DNA of 64,000 nt from Gemmatimonadaceae bacterium (GTDB lineage Bacteria > Gemmatimonadota > Gemmatimonadetes > Gemmatimonadales > Gemmatimonadaceae): the NCBI GenBank assembly GCA_019637355.1, contig JAHBVT010000001.1, positions 1,767,192 through 1,831,191 on the forward strand, written 5' to 3'. The notes under the pieces are model-generated. The model saw only the letters and a list, made by a program, of their open reading frames with translations, made no database searches and was not told the DNA's origin. The position numbers were made by a program, and so were the translations under genes. Shown here in pieces: positions 48,106-59,062 of the stretch (position 1 is the stretch's first letter; each line of letters begins with the position of its first letter).

Positions 48106-48741
48106 ATGGACGCCCCGCGTGCGCCGCTGACGGCGGTCGAGCAGGACGTCTGGCAGTTCCTGCTGGACCACCTGGCCCAACACTCGTTCCAGCCCAGCGT
48201 CCGCGAGATCGCGCGGCACTTCCGCATCCCGTCCACGCGGACGGTCTCGGACTTGATCGAGTCGCTGGAGCGCAAAGGTTACCTGCACCGCAGGCCCGGG
48301 CGGTCGCGCGGCGTGGTGCTCGCGGGCTTCGTCGGGGCTGGCGGCACGCAACCGGTGCCCGTGGTGCACTTCACGCTCAGCGGCGCGCCGGAGACCGAGC
48401 GGCATCTCACGCTGGACCGCGCGCTGGTGCCTTCGGCGGATGCGTACCTCGTGCGAGCCAACGCCGAGGAGGCACCGCGCCACGCGGTGCGCGAGGGCGA
48501 CTTGCTCTTGGTCCTGCCGGAAGCGCGCGTGCCAGAGGAGAACCCGGTGGTGGCGCGGATCGGATCGCGCGTCCTCGTGCGCACCTTGGTCCGCCGCGGC
48601 ACCACACTGTTGCTGCTCGCACCGGCGCCCGGGATGCGCGACATCGAGCTGCGCGACGAGGACGACTTCAGGATTCTCGGTCCGCTCGCGCTGGTGCTGC
48701 GGAGCACCGCCGCCGGCTCCGGCGACACCGCCGCGGACTGA
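48106..48741 (+). CDS. LexA-like transcriptional regulator with degenerate protease domain
   Basis: 211 residues. The N-terminal LexA DNA-binding winged helix (about 8-65) is clear: LTAVEQDVWQFL, QPSVREIARHF, VSDLIESLERKGYLHR. The C-terminal half has the LexA/S24 fold outline, but the nucleophile site (VRGDSM in LexA) reads VRANAE, placing Ala120 at the Ser position, and the general-base Lys is Arg159 (LVRTLVRR). Self-cleavage is therefore unlikely. It may be a non-cleavable regulator or may sense ligand or partner by another route. It follows gltX by 4 bases. Confidence 0.75.
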   Translation: MDAPRAPLTAVEQDVWQFLLDHLAQHSFQPSVREIARHFRIPSTRTVSDLIESLERKGYLHRRPGRSRGVVLAGFVGAGGTQPVPVVHFTLSGAPETERHLTLDRALVPSADAYLVRANAEEAPRHAVREGDLLLVLPEARVPEENPVVARIGSRVLVRTLVRRGTTLLLLAPAPGMRDIELRDEDDFRILGPLALVLRSTAAGSGDTAAD

Positions 48742-48756: not shown

Positions 48757-49656
48757 TCAGTCCGGCTGCGGGTCGCCGGCTTGCGGGGTCGGCCGCTGCT
48801 GCGCCTCGCGCTGGGCCTGGCGCTCCCGCTCGCGACGTTCGCGCAAGGCCTTCACCGCGCGGTCGAACTCATCGTCGCGCATCTGCCGTGCCGACTGCGT
48901 CTGGATCTCGGCTCGCATCGCATCCAGCCGGCGCGCCCGCTCCATCGCAATCGGATTCGCCTGCACGTTGTTCAGCGCGAACATCGAGAGCAGCGGCGTC
49001 GGGATGGAGAAGTTGCCCAGGCGGATCGCCTGCTGGTCCATTCCCCACTTCTTGCCGCCGAGGTCGAAGGTCCAGTCGCCCGGCCGCCGCGCGTCCTCCG
49101 GGTGGTAGCGCGCCAGGGAGTCGGCGTAGGCGAGGATGCTGCGCTCGAGCATCAGCCGCAGCGTGTCGGCGCGGGTCAGCGGGACGATCGGCGCGACGAC
49201 CACGTCGCCGGGCTTCACCCAGAGGCGCTGGTCGGTGAACGTGGGCCGCAGGCCGCGGATCGGCCCACCGTCGCCGATGAGGTCGCCGTAGCCGCCGCCT
49301 GCGCCAGCATCGCGCGACGGTGCGGCCGGCACACCCGTGGGCGCCTCGGTCGGCGCGATGATCGGCGGCGGCGCCTCGGCGGGCGGCTCCTCGGTGATCG
49401 GCCGATTGTCACCGCCCGAGCGCGGGGCCTCACGATTGGCTTCGCCATCCGTCGGCAACTGCACCTCGAAGCGAATCACCTCGGGCACGATCGCTCGACC
49501 GCTGTCGTCGCGCAGCCAGTCGTAGGCCACGGGCACGAGGAAGGCCGGCACCACGATGCCGAGGAGCAGCAACTGCAGCACGAAGGCGGTCGCCGACGCA
49601 CGGGGGTCGGCCGAGCGCCGCTTCGGCAGCAGGGAGACACCCTTCCTCGGCTTCAC
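48757..49656 (-). CDS. Membrane-anchored proline-rich protein of unknown function
   Basis: 299 residues. One transmembrane helix (about 24-48) is followed by a Pro/Ala/Glu-rich linker (about 75-120), then a mixed region with FTDQRLWVKPGDVV and a Lys/Arg/Gln-rich helical tail (about 250-299). The layout recalls TonB-like proteins, but the TonB C-terminal motif is absent. It is the last gene of the long leftward overlap chain, starting in an ATGA overlap with the fumarylacetoacetase-family gene. I do not recognise a family. Confidence 0.6.
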   Translation of the reverse strand: MKPRKGVSLLPKRRSADPRASATAFVLQLLLLGIVVPAFLVPVAYDWLRDDSGRAIVPEVIRFEVQLPTDGEANREAPRSGGDNRPITEEPPAEAPPPIIAPTEAPTGVPAAPSRDAGAGGGYGDLIGDGGPIRGLRPTFTDQRLWVKPGDVVVAPIVPLTRADTLRLMLERSILAYADSLARYHPEDARRPGDWTFDLGGKKWGMDQQAIRLGNFSIPTPLLSMFALNNVQANPIAMERARRLDAMRAEIQTQSARQMRDDEFDRAVKALRERRERERQAQREAQQRPTPQAGDPQPD

Positions 49657-50267
49657 GCCTCGGCCACCACCGGATTGCGCACGCGGCTCCAGCCGACCAC
49701 CTCGACCTCCACTTCGTCGCCGGGCTGCAGCGGCTTCACGCCGGCCGGCGTCCCCGTCGCGACTACGTCGCCGGGTTCGAGCGTCATCGACTGCGAGATG
49801 TACGACAGCAGCTCAGCGATCGGAAACACCATCTCGCTGGCCTGGCCGCGCTGGCACTCCTCGCCGTTCACGCGCGTCACCACCGTCAGCGCATTGAGGT
49901 CCACCGCGCCGCGGCGCTCCTCGCCGATCGGGCAGAAGGTGTCGGAGCCCTTCGCGCGCCACCACTGCGCGTCGGCCTTCTGCCAATCGCGCGCTGAGAC
50001 GTCGTTTACCGCGACGATGCCGCGCACCGCGCGCGCGGCCTCCGCCGCACTCGCCTTCCGGAGCGTCGTGCCAATGACCACGCCGATCTCGCCCTCGAAG
50101 TCCACGCGGCCGGCATCGCGGGGCAGCACGATCGCGTCCCCGCTGGCGATCACCGTGGACGGTGGCTTCAGGAAGATGAGCGGGACCGTGGAGACCGCGT
50201 TGCCAAGCTCCTTGGCGTGCTCGCGATACGTGCGCCCCGCGCAGACGATCTTGGATGGGCGGCTCAT
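49653..50267 (-). CDS. Fumarylacetoacetate hydrolase family protein
   Basis: 204 residues, the size of the short FAH-fold enzymes. Motifs: KIVCAGRTYREHAKELG at the start, FLKPPSTVIASGD, VDFEGEIGVVIG (metal-binding Glu residues), VNDVSARDWQ, the conserved SQSMTLEPGDVVATGTPAGV. The family hydrolyses or decarboxylates beta-dicarbonyl acids with a divalent metal; acylpyruvase and oxaloacetate tautomerase activities are known. Start and stop overlap both neighbours by 4 bases. Confidence 0.85.
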   Translation of the reverse strand: MSRPSKIVCAGRTYREHAKELGNAVSTVPLIFLKPPSTVIASGDAIVLPRDAGRVDFEGEIGVVIGTTLRKASAAEAARAVRGIVAVNDVSARDWQKADAQWWRAKGSDTFCPIGEERRGAVDLNALTVVTRVNGEECQRGQASEMVFPIAELLSYISQSMTLEPGDVVATGTPAGVKPLQPGDEVEVEVVGWSRVRNPVVAEA

Positions 50268-52762
50268 CTAGGCAATGTACCCTCATAGAAGGCGCGGAGT
50301 TCGTCCCGGAGCATCGCCCAGGGGCCCTGCAGGCGCGTGGCGGGCGGCAGTCCCTCGGTGAGCCGGCGCCCGTAGCCCTTGGTCACCACGCGCGGATCGC
50401 AGATCACGACGGCACCGCGATCGGTGGCGGTGCGGATGAGCCGCCCGAAGCCCTGCTTGAGCCGCAGCGCCGCGTGCGGGATCATATACTCGGCGAAGGC
50501 GTCGCCGCCGGCAGCCTCGATGGCCTCGCACTGCGCCGCCGTCATCGGCTCGGTGGGCACGCGGAAGGGAATCTTCGCAATGACCATCCCGCGCAGCGCG
50601 CGACCGGGCACGTCGACGCCTTCCCAGAAGCTCGCGGTGCCGATGAGCACGGCATCGCCGTGCTCACGGAAGCGTCGCAGCAGTTCGTCGCGCGGCGCCT
50701 CGCCGTGCACGAGCAGCGGATGCGCCGCCTCGGCGCCGGCCGCGCGGAGCACCGCCGCCGCCTCGCGCACGTCACGATGGCTCGTGAACAGGACGAAGAC
50801 GCCACCCCCCGCCGCCGCAATCACGTCCTGCGTCGCCTCGAGCGTGCGCTTCAGGTGCCCCGGTCCGTCGGCGTTTGGCGCCGGGAAGTCGCTAGGGATC
50901 AGCAGCATCGCCTGGCGCGGGTAGTCGAACGGCGACGCCAACGAGGCCGTCACCGGCTCGAGTTCTTCGTCGTCGAGCCCGAGCCGCCGCGTGATGAAGT
51001 CGAAGCCGTCGCCCACCGAGAGCGTGGCGCTGGTCACGATGGCCGTCTCGACGCGGCGGAAGAGGTCCTCGCGCAGGATCGGTGCGAGGTCCAACGGCAC
51101 GGCCGTCGCGCCGACGTTGCGTTCGCTACCACGCAGTTCGAGCCAGCGCACGCGCGGCGCGCCGTCGCGGCCCGGCCGCAGCGCCGCGCGCAGCGCGTCG
51201 CTGGCCGTCTGCAGCCGCCGCGTCACGCCGCGCACTTCGTTGAGCAGCGGGGCCAGTTCCTCGGCCTTGGCCTCGTCGCTCTCCAAGCGGTCGCGCACCA
51301 TCCGCAGGCCGTCGCCCAGCAGATCCACCTCAGCGAGCAGGTCGTCCAGCGCCACGCCGAGTCCCGCCTGCCACACCGGTTCGTCGTCAAAGCTGTCGGT
51401 GAGTCGCACCACCGATTCGCTGCGCCCGCGCATCCACTCGCCGAGCAAGTCGCAGAGTTCGGCACTCTTCGTGCGCGCCGTCTGCAGCGACGGGACGAGC
51501 CGGGCGCGGACGAGGTCGAGGCTCGCCACCGAGTACAGGTCCTTGCTCGAGGAGAGCTTCCGCTCCAGTGCCGGCAGCAATCCCTTGCCCCGCCGTTCGA
51601 GGCGCGAGAACAGGCGTTCGAGCCCGCGCCGTGAGACCTGCTGCCCCAAGTGCGCGGCCGCCGCATCCTCGAGGTGATGGCCTTCGTCGATCACCAGTCG
51701 CTTGTAGGCCGGCAACACCGCCGCCTCGTCCCAGCGTCCGGAGGCGCGCCGCACCGCGATGTCCGCCATCAGCAGGTGATGGTTCACGACGACCACATCC
51801 GCCTGCGCCGCGGCGCGCCGCGCCTTGAACACGAAGCAGGGATCGAAGTGCGGGCACTTGAGTCGCGTGCAGAGGTCGCCCTCGGCCGCGACTTCGTCCC
51901 ACACCTCGCTGCGCGGCGGCACCGGCAAGTCCGCCAGCGAACCATCCTGCGTCTTCTCCGCCCAGTCCTCCAGCATCCCGAGGTCCGCCGAGGCGTCGTC
52001 TTCGAAGAGTACCGGCGCCTGGAGGCGCGCCTGCTCGAGGCGCTGCAGGCAGAGGTAGTTCTTCCACCCCTTGAGCAGCGCGAAGCGCACCGGCTGGTCC
52101 TTCAGCGCCTGCTTGAGGAACGGCAGGTCCTTGGCGGTAAGCTGTTCCTGCAGGGTGATGGTGTTGGTCGAGACCACCGTGCGCTCGCCGCTCTCGGCGG
52201 CCCAGCGCAGCGCCGGCACCAGGTACCCCAGCGACTTACCCACGCCCGTGCCGGCCTCGAGCAGACCGACGCCCCCGCGCGTGTAGAGCTGCGCGATCAA
52301 GCGCGCCATCTCGCGCTGGCTGGGGCGATCCTCGTAGCGGCCCAGCGTGGCGGCAATCGGTCCGCCGGGCCCGAGCGCGCCGGCGACGTCGCCGGGCTCC
52401 AGGTGAGCCGGCTCGGCCTGCCGCGGCACCTCGACGACCACGTACAGCCGCGAGGCGTCGTTGTCGGTGATGGCGAAGCCGATGCCGTCATCGTGCATCC
52501 GCGCGGCGACGGCGAGGTCGGCATCGCTCGGCTCCAGCAGGCCACTCGGATGGTTGTGCAGGAGCAGTTCGCCGCGATTGGCGAAGCCCGGCAGCGCGAG
52601 CACGCTGGCCACGTCACCGCGAGCCGCGACGCGGGCCGTCTGTATCACGCCGGCGTCATTGACGGTGCAGACGAAGCAGACCTCGCGGCCGCCGGCGAGG
52701 CGGATGGCCGAGCGAACGGCGGCGGCGGCGCCCGGGGCGAGGCGCCCGGTCTCGCCGCTCAC
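50264..52762 (-). CDS. JAMM/RadC-like domain fused to DinG-type iron-sulfur DNA helicase
   Basis: 832 residues. Residues about 24-112 form a RadC-like JAMM domain: Glu27 in GREV, then HNHPSG (69-74) with Ser79 and Asp82, fulfilling the full HxHPx6SxxD zinc pattern. From about 145 a DinG/XPD superfamily-2 helicase begins: Walker A GTGVGKS (171-177), four Cys for the 4Fe-4S cluster (238, 298, 303, 309), and DEGH (359-362). C-terminal helicase motifs include SFWEGVDVPG and QGFGRLIRT. The helicase is expected to unwind 5' overhang or R-loop DNA. The role of the JAMM part is unknown. The gene overlaps its neighbours by 4 bases at both ends. Confidence 0.85.
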   Translation of the reverse strand: MSGETGRLAPGAAAAVRSAIRLAGGREVCFVCTVNDAGVIQTARVAARGDVASVLALPGFANRGELLLHNHPSGLLEPSDADLAVAARMHDDGIGFAITDNDASRLYVVVEVPRQAEPAHLEPGDVAGALGPGGPIAATLGRYEDRPSQREMARLIAQLYTRGGVGLLEAGTGVGKSLGYLVPALRWAAESGERTVVSTNTITLQEQLTAKDLPFLKQALKDQPVRFALLKGWKNYLCLQRLEQARLQAPVLFEDDASADLGMLEDWAEKTQDGSLADLPVPPRSEVWDEVAAEGDLCTRLKCPHFDPCFVFKARRAAAQADVVVVNHHLLMADIAVRRASGRWDEAAVLPAYKRLVIDEGHHLEDAAAAHLGQQVSRRGLERLFSRLERRGKGLLPALERKLSSSKDLYSVASLDLVRARLVPSLQTARTKSAELCDLLGEWMRGRSESVVRLTDSFDDEPVWQAGLGVALDDLLAEVDLLGDGLRMVRDRLESDEAKAEELAPLLNEVRGVTRRLQTASDALRAALRPGRDGAPRVRWLELRGSERNVGATAVPLDLAPILREDLFRRVETAIVTSATLSVGDGFDFITRRLGLDDEELEPVTASLASPFDYPRQAMLLIPSDFPAPNADGPGHLKRTLEATQDVIAAAGGGVFVLFTSHRDVREAAAVLRAAGAEAAHPLLVHGEAPRDELLRRFREHGDAVLIGTASFWEGVDVPGRALRGMVIAKIPFRVPTEPMTAAQCEAIEAAGGDAFAEYMIPHAALRLKQGFGRLIRTATDRGAVVICDPRVVTKGYGRRLTEGLPPATRLQGPWAMLRDELRAFYEGTLPR

Positions 52763-54018
52763 GTCTTCAGCGGCCGCTTCCGTGCGGCGGGGAACAGCAC
52801 GTTGTTGAGGATCAGCCGGTAGCCCGGCGAGTTGGGATGCAGCGCCAGGTCAGTCGGCGGCGCGCCGATGGCGTGCTGCGGATCCTCGGGGTCGTGCCCC
52901 CCTAGGTACGTGAACGTGCCGCGCCCGTAGCTGCCGTGGATGTACTTCACCCAGGGCGCGCCTTCCTCGTGCGCCAGGACGGTGATGCCGGGCTTGAGCG
53001 TGCGGCGCGTGAACGACGTCGTCACGCCGTAGTAGTCGCGCAGCACGTTGCGGTGGTTCTGCACCAGCATCGTGGCGACGGGGTCGAACTTGGCCGAGAA
53101 GCCGAAGAGCGTGAACGTCCCCAGCGGCTGACGGCGCGACGGCACGTTCACCTGGTGGCCGTCGATGTCGCTCATCGCGTTCACGCCGCCGCCGAACTCC
53201 AGCCGCGCGCCCTCGGTGGCGAAGGTGCGGTCCCAGCGCAGCTTCGTCTCCGCATCGGGATCCATCGGCGTGCCGTCGGTGCTCGCGCCGGCGATGTCCA
53301 CTTGGAAGGCGGCGATCGCGAGTTCGATGGTCTCGGTGGCGCCGCACATCGCGAAGAGGAACCCGCCCCGCTCCACGAAGGCGCGCAGCCGGTCGGCCAC
53401 GGTCTTCTTGAGCGTGGGGATGTCGGCAAGGTTGAAGCGCCGCGCCATCTGCAGGTCGCGCTCGCGCGCCTGCTGGAACCACGGCGCGTCGCGGAAGCCG
53501 AGGTACAGCTTGTGCTGCTGTCCCGTGAAGTCCTCGTGATGCAGATGAATCCAGTCAAACTGCGACAGGTCCGTGGAGAGGACGTCGTCGTCCCAGATGT
53601 TCGTGTACGGGATGCCGGCGTAGGTGAGCGCGAGCGTCACGGCGTCGTCCCAGGGCATCGCCTGCGGCGGCGAGTACACGGCGATGCGCGGCGCCTTGTC
53701 CAGCGGCACGGCGTCCATATTCCCGTCGGCGATCTCGCGCCGGATCGCGGCCACACGCCCTTCGTCGAGCGGCTCGAAGCTCACGCCCGCCAGCAAGGCC
53801 GAGCGCCGCAGGCCCGGCAGGTCCGGAATCAGGAAGCTGCCGCCGCGATAGTTGAGCAACCACTCGCTGCGCACGCCATCCGTCAGCGCACCGAAGGTCA
53901 GCCCATATGCCTTGAGGTGATTCGCCTGCGCGTCGTCCATCGGCACGAGCAGATGCTGCGCACGCAGCGGCAGCGCGGCGCAGATCGCCACGAACGCGAG
54001 AAGCAGAGCGCGCCTCAT
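52759..54018 (-). CDS. Secreted protein with GATase1/ThuA-like fold (often labelled asparagine synthetase B)
   Basis: 419 residues with a signal peptide (about 1-20, ending PLRAQ). The mature start LLVPMDDAQANHLKAYG and LLNYRGGSFLIPD are the hallmarks of a family often named asparagine synthetase B, yet no AsnB domain exists. GGFLFAMCGATET (about 225) looks like a nucleophile-elbow region of class-I amidotransferase-like folds. C-terminal residues include YGRGTFTYLGGHDPED. Function unknown; it is in an overlap chain with a TPR protein and DUF4159/DUF4175 genes. Confidence 0.7.
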   Translation of the reverse strand: MRRALLLAFVAICAALPLRAQHLLVPMDDAQANHLKAYGLTFGALTDGVRSEWLLNYRGGSFLIPDLPGLRRSALLAGVSFEPLDEGRVAAIRREIADGNMDAVPLDKAPRIAVYSPPQAMPWDDAVTLALTYAGIPYTNIWDDDVLSTDLSQFDWIHLHHEDFTGQQHKLYLGFRDAPWFQQARERDLQMARRFNLADIPTLKKTVADRLRAFVERGGFLFAMCGATETIELAIAAFQVDIAGASTDGTPMDPDAETKLRWDRTFATEGARLEFGGGVNAMSDIDGHQVNVPSRRQPLGTFTLFGFSAKFDPVATMLVQNHRNVLRDYYGVTTSFTRRTLKPGITVLAHEEGAPWVKYIHGSYGRGTFTYLGGHDPEDPQHAIGAPPTDLALHPNSPGYRLILNNVLFPAARKRPLKT

Positions 54019-55709
54019 CGGCCGGCTCGGTCGGAAGGAAGGGCGTCGAGCTCGCGCCGCGCCTGCGGCACCAGCGCGCTGCCCGGATACTCCAGGATCA
54101 CGTGTTCAAACTGCAACCGCGCGCCGCGCACGTCGCCGCGGCGCCGCAGGAGCCGTCCCCACTCCAGCCGCGCCTCAGGCGCCTCGGGCGCGGCGGCATA
54201 GCTCTCGGCCACGCGCGTCCACAGCGGCAGCGCCCGCGCATCGGCGCCGCGTGCGGTTTCCAGGCGCGCGGCCATCGTGACCAACAGCGACGAAGCATCC
54301 GCCAACGACTCCGCCGCCTGCGTGAAGTAGCGGACGGCCGCGGCGGTGTCACCGCGGGCCAACGCCAGGAAGGCATCGCCGGCCTGCGTCGACCGCTCCG
54401 CGCGCGTGCGCGAGAGCAGGGCCAGCGCGGCCACCGCTTCCGGCGCGGTGACATCGCCGAAACGCAGGCTGCGCCGCGCCGTCACGAGGTCGCCGTCGAA
54501 CAGTGCCAGCCAGCCGCCCACGGCATCGTCCGCATCCAGTGGCGCCTCGGCGAGCGCGGCCCGCGCGCGCGCCACGTTGCCCGAGCGCACCCAGGCCCAG
54601 GCGATCGTCCGCTGGAATGCGCGCGCCTGCGCACCCAGTTGCGGCGCGGCCTCGGCGAGCACGCGTTCGGCTTCCTCGCCGCGTCCGAGCCGCGCGAGCG
54701 CCTCGAGCTCCACCCCGACCAGCTCCGGACGCATTGGCCCGCCCGGGCCACGTGCCGCGCGCACCAGGCGCAGCGCGACCTCGGGTTCGTTGGAGCGCAT
54801 CGCGGCGACGGCACCGCGTTGCGCCGTGCCCACCAGCGGCTTCGCCCGATGCATCGCCACGAGCGCGTCGCGCGCCGCAGCCCAGGCCTGCACGCGCTCG
54901 GCCTCCTCGGCGAACTCTCCCCACACGAACACTGTCGTGTCGCTCGGCGGCAGCGCCTGCAGCACCTGCCAGCCCGTGAGCGGTGCACCCCAGCCGAGTT
55001 CCAGCAGCGCCATCGCCAGGCGAGCCCCAATCGGGGCATCGGACGTCACCAACGCTGCGCGCAGCGAATCGCGCTGCTCCACCGGCGCCGGCGAAAGCGA
55101 GAACACCGCCGCCGATTCGAAGTACGGCTGGTCACGCATCGTCTCGCGCCACGCTTCGGCGGCGGCGCTCCAGCGCCCCAATGCGGCGCGCATCTGCGCC
55201 GCCTCGAGCAGCAGTTCGCGCGTGCCGCCCAGCGTGGCGGTCGCTTCCTGCAACACCGAATCCGCGGCGGCCGCGCGACTGTTGTAGATGAGGATGCGGG
55301 CGTAGTCGCGGAACGGCGCGACGTCGCGCGGGCGCAGGGCACGCCACTCGCGGAACGCCGAGTCGGCCCGCTCATCGCGACCGAGTACCACCAAGGTGCG
55401 GAGTTGGGCGCCACGGAGCTGCGCGTCGGCGGGCGTCAGCGGGATCAGCGAATCCAGCAGCGGCACGAGGCGCGCTTCTTCACCCGTCATCGTGTACACG
55501 CGCTCCAACCCGAGCACGCCCGGCACCACGGCGCCGGCGTCGATGACCTCGATCCACGCGGCACGCGCCTGTTCGTAGCGCCCGCCGTTCTCGTGATCGA
55601 TGGCGCGCGCGATTAGCGGCGCGGTGGGATTGCCCAGCGGGCGCTGCTGCGCCGGCAGCGACACCGCAGCGCTCAGCACCAGCGCAAGACCGATGACACC
55701 CCACCTCAC
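54015..55709 (-). CDS. Secreted TPR-like repeat protein
   Basis: 564 residues. A signal peptide (about 1-21, ending SLPAQQ) precedes repeated Ala/Arg/Leu-rich helical hairpins of TPR style throughout, with a more standard TPR near the C-terminus (EARLEWGRLLRRRGDVRGARLQFEHVILEYPGS). It is probably a periplasmic scaffold. It overlaps its neighbours by 4 bases at both ends, between the DUF4175 gene and the ThuA-like gene. Confidence 0.72.
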   Translation of the reverse strand: MRWGVIGLALVLSAAVSLPAQQRPLGNPTAPLIARAIDHENGGRYEQARAAWIEVIDAGAVVPGVLGLERVYTMTGEEARLVPLLDSLIPLTPADAQLRGAQLRTLVVLGRDERADSAFREWRALRPRDVAPFRDYARILIYNSRAAAADSVLQEATATLGGTRELLLEAAQMRAALGRWSAAAEAWRETMRDQPYFESAAVFSLSPAPVEQRDSLRAALVTSDAPIGARLAMALLELGWGAPLTGWQVLQALPPSDTTVFVWGEFAEEAERVQAWAAARDALVAMHRAKPLVGTAQRGAVAAMRSNEPEVALRLVRAARGPGGPMRPELVGVELEALARLGRGEEAERVLAEAAPQLGAQARAFQRTIAWAWVRSGNVARARAALAEAPLDADDAVGGWLALFDGDLVTARRSLRFGDVTAPEAVAALALLSRTRAERSTQAGDAFLALARGDTAAAVRYFTQAAESLADASSLLVTMAARLETARGADARALPLWTRVAESYAAAPEAPEARLEWGRLLRRRGDVRGARLQFEHVILEYPGSALVPQARRELDALPSDRAGR

Positions 55710-58700
55710 GGAGTCCCCCCAGCGTTCAGGCGGCGGAAGTACTCGATCACCACGCGACGGTCCTCCGGGCTCAGCCCGCGCAACTCTTCCCAGGTCGGCA
55801 CGCGATAGCGATCCGCCGCGGCGCCACTCGCACGGCCGTCCGGCGTGACGCGCGTAGACTCGCGCGCAGCCCGCGCCTCGCGCCGTTGGCTTTCGTCGCG
55901 CTGATCCTGCTCCAGCGAACGGCCGGCGTCGAGCATCCGGCGCAGCAACTGCTCCTGGCGCGCCTTGGTCGTCGGGTCCACGGCGCCTTGGTCCAGCGCC
56001 GCGGCCAGCGCGCGCGCTTCACGCGCCATCTCCTGCGCACGTCCGGTGGGGTCGGCGTCGCTGAGGTCGTCGAGCTGCCGCGCCACTTCGCGCTGCGATC
56101 GCGCCAGCTCGCGGGCCTGCGCGCGCGCGGCTTCGCCCTGCCCGTCACGCCCGTCCTGCGGTTGTCCAGTGGGCAGCAAGCTCTGCATCTGCGCGTTGAG
56201 TCCGCCCTGCTGCTGCGCCAGCTCCTGCATCTGCTTCAGCATCTCGGCCATCCCGGTGGCGCTGCGGCTGTCGGCCGCGCGCTCGCGATCACGCGTCAAC
56301 TGCGCCGCCGCCTGCCGCAATGCATCCGCCGACTCCCGCATCGCCTGCTCGGTCTGGCCGCGCCGCCCTTCGGCCGCCTCGCGCGAGGCCTGCGCCGAGC
56401 GCTGCCGCGCGCGCTCCATCAACTCCCGCGAGCGCGGGGAGACCAGGGCCGAACGCCGTGACTCGTCCTCGAGGCGCTGCTGCGCGGCCTGCACGCCCTG
56501 CTGCAGCGCCGACTGTTGCGCACGCAGGCTGGCCTCGGTGTTGTCGGCGCGCGCCTGCTGCGCGAGCTGGTCCTGCTCGCGGGCGAGCTGCATCATCTCC
56601 TGCACCGACTGGTCCAGCGCCGAGGTCAGCTCGGCTTTCCACTCGCCGACTTGGCGCTCGCGGGCCTCGCCCAGCGCCTCGGCCGCGCGCTGCATCGCGT
56701 CCGAGGCCTGCTGCGCGTTGGCGGCGGCGTTGCGCGGGTCCTGCCCCGCCTGCTGCATCGCCTGCGCGGCGGCCTGCGCCTGCCGTGCGCCTTCGTTGGT
56801 CCGCTCGGCACCGGTCTGCGCGTTGGCCTGCTCCAGCCGCTGCGCCAACTGCTCGGCCTGCTCGGCCAGCGCCTTGGAGCGCTGCTGCATCGCCGCCGCT
56901 TCCTCCGGCGTCGGCGGACGCCGCTGCGCCGAGTCCGCGAGCGCCCGCTGCTCTTCGGCGAGTTCCTGGCCGCGGTCGGCGAGCGTCTGCATCTGGCCTT
57001 CGAGCGCCGCACGGCGCAGCATCTCGGCGCTGCGTTCGAGTTGCTCGCGCATCCGCTGCTGGGCCTGCGCCAGCTCCTGCAACGACTGCCGCGTGCGCGC
57101 GCCATCCAGTTGCTGCGTGGCCGACTCCAGGCGTTGCATCGCCGCCAGCATCTCCGGCGTCATCGCTTCGCGCATCAGGCGCTGGGCTTCCTGCAACTGC
57201 TGCTGCAACGCGGGATCCAGCGCACCTGCCTGCCGCAGCCGCTCCTCCAACTGCCGCGCCGCTTCCTCAAGGTTCTGCACCTGCTGCTGCAGCTCATGCT
57301 GCTGCTCGCCGATCTCTCGCGCACGCTCGGCGCCTTCGTAGCCCAGCGGCTCGCGCGGCTGGCCGGAGTTCGATTCACCCGCGCGCGGTTGCCCCGCCGG
57401 CACGCCCTGCTGCTGGCCTTGCTGCTGCGCCTGCTGCTGCGCCTGTCCGATCGGCGGCTGCTCACGCGCCGCCTCGGCGCCGCGCTCGCCGCGCGAACGC
57501 GCCTCGTTGGCCGTGCGCTCGGCCAGCGCGGCCTGGGCCTTCGCGGCCGCATCGGCGGCGGCGACTGCCTCGGCGGCCGCTTCATCGGCGGCCGTACGCG
57601 CCTGCTCCGCCGTCGGCACGCGCAGCAGCACCGGCGCGCTCACCGCGCGGCGTTCGCCCGGGGCCGCATCGCGCGCTACCAGCGTCACCTCGAGTCCATC
57701 GCCTGGCTGCAGCGCAAAGTCAGCCAGCGCCAGCACCGCACTGCCGCTCCACAGAGTCTCGCGCGGCGTGGCGAGTTCCCGCAGCTGCGGCGGCGCATCG
57801 GAATCCACGCGGCGCAGCCGCAGCGCGACCTCGGCCAGTCCGTAGTCATCCTGCGCAAGCAGCTCCAACGCGATGCTCGCATCAGCCGCCACGAAGCGCT
57901 CGCCTACCGGCGCAAGGATCTCCACGCGCGGCAGCGAGTCCTCCACGACGTCGATCTCCAGCGGCAGCGGCAGGTCCTCCACCACCTGCGCCGTGCCCAG
58001 CACCTCCCAGCGCCACTGCGCGCGCTGTCGCGGAATCAGCGCGCCGGCAAAGCGCACGCCGTTCACCGCCGGCAGTACCACGCGCGCGCCGTCGCTGACG
58101 AGCACCGCCGATTCCAGGGCCTGCGACGAGCGGCCCGTAATCTCGAGCCGCGTGCCCGCGGGCACACGCAACGGTTCGTCCGCCGGCAGCGATTCGTCGC
58201 CGCGGCCGAGGTACGCCGGGTAGCGGGCGCGGATGGCGACGTCACCGACGAAGGGGCGATCGACCACCGCGATGTCGACCGAATCCCGACCGGCGCGACC
58301 GTCCAGCGCGACGACGACGAGATCCGCCGAGACCGACGTGATCTCGATCGTCGCCGAGCCCGCGGCATCGACTTCGAGCCAGGTCTCCCGCCAGTCAGCA
58401 CCGAGCGTGCGCCAGCGGACTTCGACCGCGCGGCGGCCCGGCGCGTCCACCGTGAGGCGCAGGTCCGCGCCGCGCGTGATACGCGTCGGCGCGTCAACGA
58501 TCGCGAGCGGCCCCACGAGGTTGCCGCGCCAGGCGCCCAGCGGATTCAGCAGCGCGTGCCAGCCATCGGCACGGCGCGCGTACGACGTGGACGCCAGCAG
58601 CAGCACCTGCCCCAGCGCGACGACCGACAGCACCGCCGCGCGCTGCAAACGACGCCGCAGGCGCGGCGCCGGCCGCGACTCAGCCGCCGCCAGCGCCGCC

Positions 58701-59062
58701 GACGCCTGTGCCACCGCGAGGTCCGCGAACACACCGCTGCCTTCGACCTCGAGCACGCCCACCAGCGCGCCGCGCCGCAGGCCTTGCTCGCGCTCGATGG
58801 CCGCCGCCACCGCGCGCGGCTCCGCGCGCGCCGCCAGCCGACGCCGCAAGAAGCCACCCAATGCCACCGCCGCAGCGAGCGCAAGCACCCACGCCAGCAG
58901 CGGCAGAATGCGCGGCGCGATGAGCCAGCCGCCGTCGGCGAGCCACGCCGCCGCCGATGTCAGCGCGCCCACCAGCACCGTAAGCGGCAGCAGCGTGCCC
59001 GCCAACCACGCGCGCCGGCGCAGGCGCTGTACCTCGGCGTGCACCACGTGCAGCGAACTCAT
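55706..59062 (-). CDS. DUF4175-family large coiled-coil membrane protein
   Basis: 1118 residues. Two transmembrane helices (about 20-42 and 50-70) are followed by a beta-rich periplasmic region (about 150-460) and then a very long helical region (about 480-1060) rich in Gln, Ala, Arg and Glu, with repeated QQ-runs and heptad spacing. The short C-terminal YRVPTWEELRGLSPEDRRVVIEYFRRL is conserved in DUF4175 relatives. Function unknown. It follows the DUF4159 gene in an ATGA overlap. One of the three CATG sites (57295) lies in its Gln-rich part. Confidence 0.75.
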   Translation of the reverse strand: MSSLHVVHAEVQRLRRRAWLAGTLLPLTVLVGALTSAAAWLADGGWLIAPRILPLLAWVLALAAAVALGGFLRRRLAARAEPRAVAAAIEREQGLRRGALVGVLEVEGSGVFADLAVAQASAALAAAESRPAPRLRRRLQRAAVLSVVALGQVLLLASTSYARRADGWHALLNPLGAWRGNLVGPLAIVDAPTRITRGADLRLTVDAPGRRAVEVRWRTLGADWRETWLEVDAAGSATIEITSVSADLVVVALDGRAGRDSVDIAVVDRPFVGDVAIRARYPAYLGRGDESLPADEPLRVPAGTRLEITGRSSQALESAVLVSDGARVVLPAVNGVRFAGALIPRQRAQWRWEVLGTAQVVEDLPLPLEIDVVEDSLPRVEILAPVGERFVAADASIALELLAQDDYGLAEVALRLRRVDSDAPPQLRELATPRETLWSGSAVLALADFALQPGDGLEVTLVARDAAPGERRAVSAPVLLRVPTAEQARTAADEAAAEAVAAADAAAKAQAALAERTANEARSRGERGAEAAREQPPIGQAQQQAQQQGQQQGVPAGQPRAGESNSGQPREPLGYEGAERAREIGEQQHELQQQVQNLEEAARQLEERLRQAGALDPALQQQLQEAQRLMREAMTPEMLAAMQRLESATQQLDGARTRQSLQELAQAQQRMREQLERSAEMLRRAALEGQMQTLADRGQELAEEQRALADSAQRRPPTPEEAAAMQQRSKALAEQAEQLAQRLEQANAQTGAERTNEGARQAQAAAQAMQQAGQDPRNAAANAQQASDAMQRAAEALGEARERQVGEWKAELTSALDQSVQEMMQLAREQDQLAQQARADNTEASLRAQQSALQQGVQAAQQRLEDESRRSALVSPRSRELMERARQRSAQASREAAEGRRGQTEQAMRESADALRQAAAQLTRDRERAADSRSATGMAEMLKQMQELAQQQGGLNAQMQSLLPTGQPQDGRDGQGEAARAQARELARSQREVARQLDDLSDADPTGRAQEMAREARALAAALDQGAVDPTTKARQEQLLRRMLDAGRSLEQDQRDESQRREARAARESTRVTPDGRASGAAADRYRVPTWEELRGLSPEDRRVVIEYFRRLNAGGTP

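Follow-up and report, generated by a model that had tools for sequence, protein, structure and literature searches.

Cheng 2025 (PMC11981726) distinguishes ten subgroups of DinG, one of which is named RadC-like DinG. As described there, with Desulfuromonas soudanensis as an example, these proteins carry an N-terminal RadC-like domain with a conserved E/H/H/D site and a YoaA-like iron–sulphur (FeS) helicase, and are found in genomes without HolC. A DALI search with the RadC-like domain returned metalloproteases and no nucleases, and the article states that there is as yet no research on RadC-like DinG. The text consulted mentions neither Gemmatimonadota nor members in which the JAMM domain is missing or degenerate. 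We met the term itself in Cheng 2025 only.

Several other systems share parts of this architecture. YoaA of E. coli has a similar helicase but no JAMM domain, and acts with HolC. E. coli DinG has the same helicase fold and 4Fe-4S cysteines. The S. aureus protein (SaDinG) also bears an additional N-terminal enzyme domain, but this is a DEDD exonuclease instead of a JAMM peptidase fold, and its FeS domain is a pseudo-FeS domain. RadC (YicR/UPF0758) has the JAMM signature HNHPSG...PSxxD, but begins with a UPF0758_N domain (PF20582) and has no helicase. In the JAMM/MPN+ motif EXnH(S/T/N)HX7SXXD, the glutamate is the predicted acid/base, the histidines and the aspartate bind zinc, and the serine stabilises the intermediate; in AfJAMM and Csn5, the motif residues bind zinc and are required for isopeptidase activity, and the Ser/Thr that separates the histidines is known to be replaceable by asparagine (PMC300881).

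Here, we describe a protein of this kind, JAMM-DinG, encoded in a 64,000-nucleotide stretch of a Gemmatimonadaceae genome (the window). Its 832-aa frame starts with GTG, is free of internal stops on translation, and contains the following features, listed with its neighbours:

50264..52762, minus strand: JAMM-DinG ('RadC-like DinG') gene; open frame and translation, with orthologues found in 56 of 61 relatives and, phylum-wide, in 125 of 150 genomes
52427..52693, minus strand: RadC-type JAMM domain, residues 24-112; Pfam RadC in 37 of 37 homologues, model m5ef25f54ea1a, Foldseek matches to RadC 2qlc and JAMM/MPN
52682..52684, minus strand: Glu27, the residue predicted to act as general acid/base in the JAMM site; invariant in both cross-phylum alignments, motif from PMC300881
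52550..52558, minus strand: His69-Asn70-His71, the histidines being predicted zinc ligands; invariant in both cross-phylum alignments
52517..52528, minus strand: Ser79...Asp82, predicted oxyanion serine and third zinc ligand; invariant, HxHx7SxxD spacing exact
52343..52426, minus strand: poorly conserved linker, residues 113-140; mean column conservation 0.55 (38 Gemmatimonadota proteins)
50267..52342, minus strand: DinG/YoaA-type superfamily-2 helicase, residues 141-832; NCBIfam YoaA 580 bits, Foldseek DinG 6fwr 4.8e-43, full model pLDDT 91.2
52232..52252, minus strand: Walker A GTGVGKS, residues 171-177; kept across the 38 Gemmatimonadota proteins, except V174 (I in 3)
52049..52051, minus strand: Cys238, first 4Fe-4S cysteine; 100% in 38 Gemmatimonadota proteins
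51836..51871, minus strand: Cys298, Cys303 and Cys309, the other 4Fe-4S cysteines; 100% in 38 Gemmatimonadota proteins
51677..51688, minus strand: DEGH motif II, residues 359-362; D359 and E360 invariant in the cross-phylum alignment
50342..50827, minus strand: Helicase_C_2, motor domain 2; Pfam PF13307, 148.8 bits
52759..54018, minus strand: upstream neighbour, 419 aa, 4-base overlap with the JAMM-DinG start; no Pfam match
49653..50267, minus strand: downstream neighbour of the FAA-hydrolase family, 4-base overlap; Pfam PF01557, 222.8 bits

The N-terminal domain matches the Pfam RadC family (PF04002) at residues 66-91, barely above threshold in the full protein (22.2 bits, cut-off 22.1) and at 27.7 bits for the N-domain alone; all 37 homologous N-domains match as well. 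Profile comparison with RadC gives an hhalign probability of 96, and the JAMM-domain profile matches 2qlc at 8e-8. The full-length RadC profiles NF000642 and TIGR00608 score 20.6 and 16.2 bits against cut-offs of 180 and 133.85, and Pfam gave no match to UPF0758_N in the protein. The spacing of the JAMM/MPN+ motif is exact, which is new beyond the earlier account of RadC-like DinG, and when residues 1-140 were shuffled 200,000 times, H[NST]Hx7SxxD arose in 5 cases. E27, H69, N70, H71, P72, G74, S79 and D82 are invariant in alignments reaching other phyla, among them the 37-sequence N-domain alignment. Among 38 Gemmatimonadota proteins, mean conservation is 0.79 for the JAMM domain, 0.74 for the helicase and lower for the linker, so that the JAMM domain is conserved as strongly as the motor to which it is joined.

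By profile, the helicase is nearer to YoaA than to DinG: the top NCBIfam profile is YoaA (NF053712; 580.2 bits, under its equivalog cut-off of 680), followed by the DinG profiles NF005981 (451.1 bits, cut-off 789) and NF008729 (421.3 bits, cut-off 598), which likewise stay below their equivalog cut-offs. E. coli YoaA is also closer on the helicase tree than E. coli DinG. Across 49 proteins from several phyla, C303 and C309 are invariant and C298 is kept in at least 90%. The AlphaFold2 model of the N-domain (pLDDT 88.8) retrieves RadC 2qlc first in Foldseek, then CSN5, AfJAMM, BRCC36 and Rpn11, and VIA-align places it near BubCD (Z 10.4), a Caldiarchaeum Rpn11 homologue (9.7) and CSN5 (9.5). 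The full model (pTM 0.85) retrieves E. coli DinG with ssDNA (6fwr), then SaDinG, CasDinG and XPD. The N-domain is thus predicted to adopt a JAMM fold and the remainder a DinG fold.

Protein searches found JAMM-DinG in 56 of the 61 related genomes, and with the helicase part alone as query, 125 of the 150 Gemmatimonadota genomes were matched. In the Gemmatimonadota groups f7, f8, g5 and g7, all or several genomes are without a helicase match at E 1e-20. In a JAMM-domain scan of GTDB genomes, 327 matches were confirmed; the best 80 lie in Gemmatimonadota, Spirochaetota, Geobacter and other deltaproteobacteria, Hydrogenedentota, Latescibacterota, Riflebacteria, Dadabacteria and unplaced bacteria. 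Almost all readable matches have JAMM and helicase with constant motif spacing; as the scan query included the motif, its retention can be demonstrated by the helicase-only search and not by the scan alone. The fusion is present throughout Gemmatimonadota; outside it, at least six further phylum-level groups have it too. In the window's genome, the protein is the single DinG-family match, beside one separate full RadC (L021), and in 9 of 10 genomes of other phyla the fused helicase is likewise the sole one. JAMM-DinG appears to be near-universal in Gemmatimonadota, apparently as the only DinG-family helicase there, which adds new distribution data. A search for HolC in the window's genome gave at best 14.7 bits (cut-off 25.4); its absence there is likewise a new observation.

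The window protein thus has the N-terminal RadC-like domain, E27/H69/H71/D82, the FeS cysteines, the motor motifs and the HolC-less genome of RadC-like DinG. We put at about 0.97 the probability that it is a chromosomal, housekeeping-type RadC-like DinG: a 4Fe-4S superfamily-2 DNA helicase with an N-terminal RadC-type JAMM zinc-peptidase-like domain. The preliminary description had named both domains together with their zinc, catalytic, Walker A, cysteine and DEGH residues, all of which are in place, and had called for an architecture search, a structure prediction and a phylogeny. The JAMM domain, the complete 4Fe-4S helicase and the reality of their fusion are all borne out. The description knew of no JAMM version of DinG, but Cheng 2025 (PMC11981726) had already defined the subgroup, which makes the protein one more representative of a type already on record.

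An association with defence or mobile elements was considered and rejected: PADLOC hits fall on the DinG helicase part only, and the phage and plasmid matches listed are confined to residues 142-827; that none of those listed carries the fusion is new. The locus is chromosomal. The gene overlaps both neighbours by 4 bases and belongs to a minus-strand run of six overlapping genes (48757-59062). Relatives of the 419-aa neighbour, the start of which resembles a signal peptide, adjoin JAMM-DinG in 48 Gemmatimonadota loci, mostly immediately upstream, and the FAA-hydrolase-family gene keeps its position in many relatives. This neighbourhood is conserved phylum-wide within Gemmatimonadota only and differs in other phyla, so it was set aside as a clue to function. 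Concerning SOS control, no E. coli-type box was found for JAMM-DinG; a single GAACN4GTTC occurs at 51608, within the gene. On the opposite strand, lexA (48106-48741, plus strand) begins 5 bases past gltX, with which it is probably cotranscribed, and converges on the end of the gene run; lying so close behind gltX, it offers no promoter region for an SOS-box comparison.

Natural variants of the fusion exist, and as JAMM-less and dead-site forms they are new data on RadC-like DinG. The N termini of loci L124-L193 were inspected, the later ones picked partly for shortness or distance, so that the proportions of variants are not a fair sample; the majority carry the complete JAMM motif. The motif is absent before the helicase in eight of these loci (L154-L159, L176 and L193) and in L042, which still lies downstream of the usual upstream gene. 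In L177 and L178, the JAMM domain is retained but its ligands are gone, leaving a dead active site. Both come from one genus (G149 and G137), with genomes of about 2.0 Mb that lack standalone RadC; they represent one event at most, and may hint that a substrate is shared. Outside Gemmatimonadota, L209 (G235) encodes a DinG-type helicase with an apparently degenerate JAMM domain, in which RVRPGSDLRPEPAEED replaces HNHPSG...PSxxD. Standalone RadC as a functional substitute follows no clear rule: JAMM-less genomes mostly keep RadC, the two pseudo-JAMM genomes do not have it, and in G181 and G182 an intact JAMM-DinG occurs without a separate RadC. The Gemmatimonadota orthologues with a missing or dead JAMM domain indicate that the helicase is able to work without it.

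To account for the JAMM-less Gemmatimonadota rows, the helicase tree needs at least three changes. The fused proteins are separated (SH-aLRT 99) from a clade of standalone YoaA-type proteins that includes E. coli YoaA. Very long branches leading to E. coli DinG and L213 leave the root unsure. The tree is compatible with a single fusion followed by later losses, but does not prove it.

How might the two domains work together? In animals, the XPD-family helicase FANCJ unfolds crosslinked proteins by running into them, which lets the protease SPRTN cleave them (PMC12279946). JAMM-DinG could be a one-chain counterpart of this pair. The helicase would load where a stalled fork or a gap offers single-stranded DNA, translocate 5'->3' as its family is taken to do, and meet a DNA-bound or crosslinked protein, which it would strip or unfold; the tethered JAMM domain, presumably hydrolysing with zinc like other family members, would then cut the blocking protein. 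A DNA-bound protein as the substrate is itself something we infer. The likeness is one of working only: FANCJ and SPRTN are two chains that both act on DNA-bound proteins, SPRTN is a metalloprotease but not a JAMM protease, and the system is not homologous.

We tentatively favour delivery of a JAMM zinc peptidase by the helicase to proteins that block DNA, and regard as somewhat more doubtful the specific version of a single-chain bacterial machine whose XPD/FANCJ-family helicase passes DNA-bound or crosslinked proteins on to the JAMM zinc protease of the same chain. Both domains, their intact active sites and their co-conservation are observed. The exact invariant motif, the peptidase-like fold matches, the co-conservation of JAMM and helicase, the DinG/XPD structural matches, the FANCJ/SPRTN precedent, a chromosomal locus with phylum-conserved neighbours and the restriction of the listed phage and plasmid matches to the helicase speak for the favoured mechanism. 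Against it count the orthologues with no or a dead JAMM domain, and the genes adjoining JAMM-DinG, none of which hints at DNA-protein crosslinks. The papers cited here on JAMM and RadC-like DinG name no peptidase activity for any RadC-type JAMM domain; RadC had no assigned function as of 2003 (PMC300881), and Cheng 2025 (PMC11981726) describes its function as seemingly unrelated to DNA repair. All three points likewise weigh against the mechanism.

A peptidase need not be a general one. The JAMM domain might be a specific (iso)peptidase that cuts one replisome or repair partner, or JAMM-DinG itself, and so switches the helicase on or off, as Csn5, Rpn11 and PfJAMM1 are specific isopeptidases (PMC300881 and PMC11981726). 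With HolC absent, both here and, according to Cheng 2025, in other organisms with RadC-like DinG, the coupling of YoaA to HolC is missing and a different regulator is plausible; the window's genome also has a separate E1-like/JAB module. However, no conserved partner was found beside the gene across phyla, and the JAB protein of that module is distant from the JAMM domain of JAMM-DinG (hhalign probability 2.8, against 96 for RadC), and we consider such a switch rather unlikely. To much the same degree we doubt that the domain is a zinc-binding module that recognises DNA or protein and steers the helicase without hydrolysis. The pseudo-JAMM domains of L177, L178 and L209 suggest that the fold can be useful without catalysis, and RadC has no established activity in PMC300881 or PMC11981726; the non-ligand glutamate (the predicted acid/base) and the oxyanion serine are, however, as invariant as the ligands, and the DALI search of Cheng 2025 (PMC11981726) gave no likeness to nucleases. 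Steering of this kind would fit the preliminary description, which tied RadC-like domains to R-loop or branched-DNA processing; that link is unsupported, since the domain resembles RadC and JAMM (iso)peptidases rather than nucleases, also in Cheng's DALI search.

Of the rivals concerning function, a nuclease or other nucleic-acid hydrolase is the least likely, and we hold it to be improbable. With it, the protein would parallel the exonuclease-DinG of Firmicutes, and the 3'-5' exonuclease domain of S. aureus DinG, which is active, does occupy the same N-terminal position (PMC12345164). Both fold and motif, however, point to JAMM peptidases and not to a DnaQ exonuclease, and the papers cited here mention no JAMM nuclease. 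An artefact of assembly or gene calling, or an oddity of a single genome, is refuted by the recurrence of the fusion in related, phylum-wide and GTDB genomes; dozens of independent genomes show the frame uninterrupted and the motifs at constant spacing, no point in favour of an artefact was found, and its chance is close to nil.

What RadC-type JAMM domains do is a long-standing question, and here one whose active site is complete comes firmly joined to a DNA motor. If the roadblock mechanism holds, feeding proteins to the domain would be its first biochemical role, and if the peptidase reading is right, bacteria of many phyla would possess a dedicated protease-helicase against protein roadblocks. 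Orthologues without JAMM, or with a dead one, are natural controls that make its function testable by standard biochemistry.

The E1-like/JAB module lies about 39 kb past the window's end (L023:1315-3067, G000:C1), where two overlapping genes encode an E1-like ThiF protein of 399 aa and a Prok-JAB protein of 206 aa with the motif HSHPEPDPHPSPTD. The pair is a bacterial ubiquitin-like E1/JAB module and matches the E1-E2 and JAB models of PADLOC.
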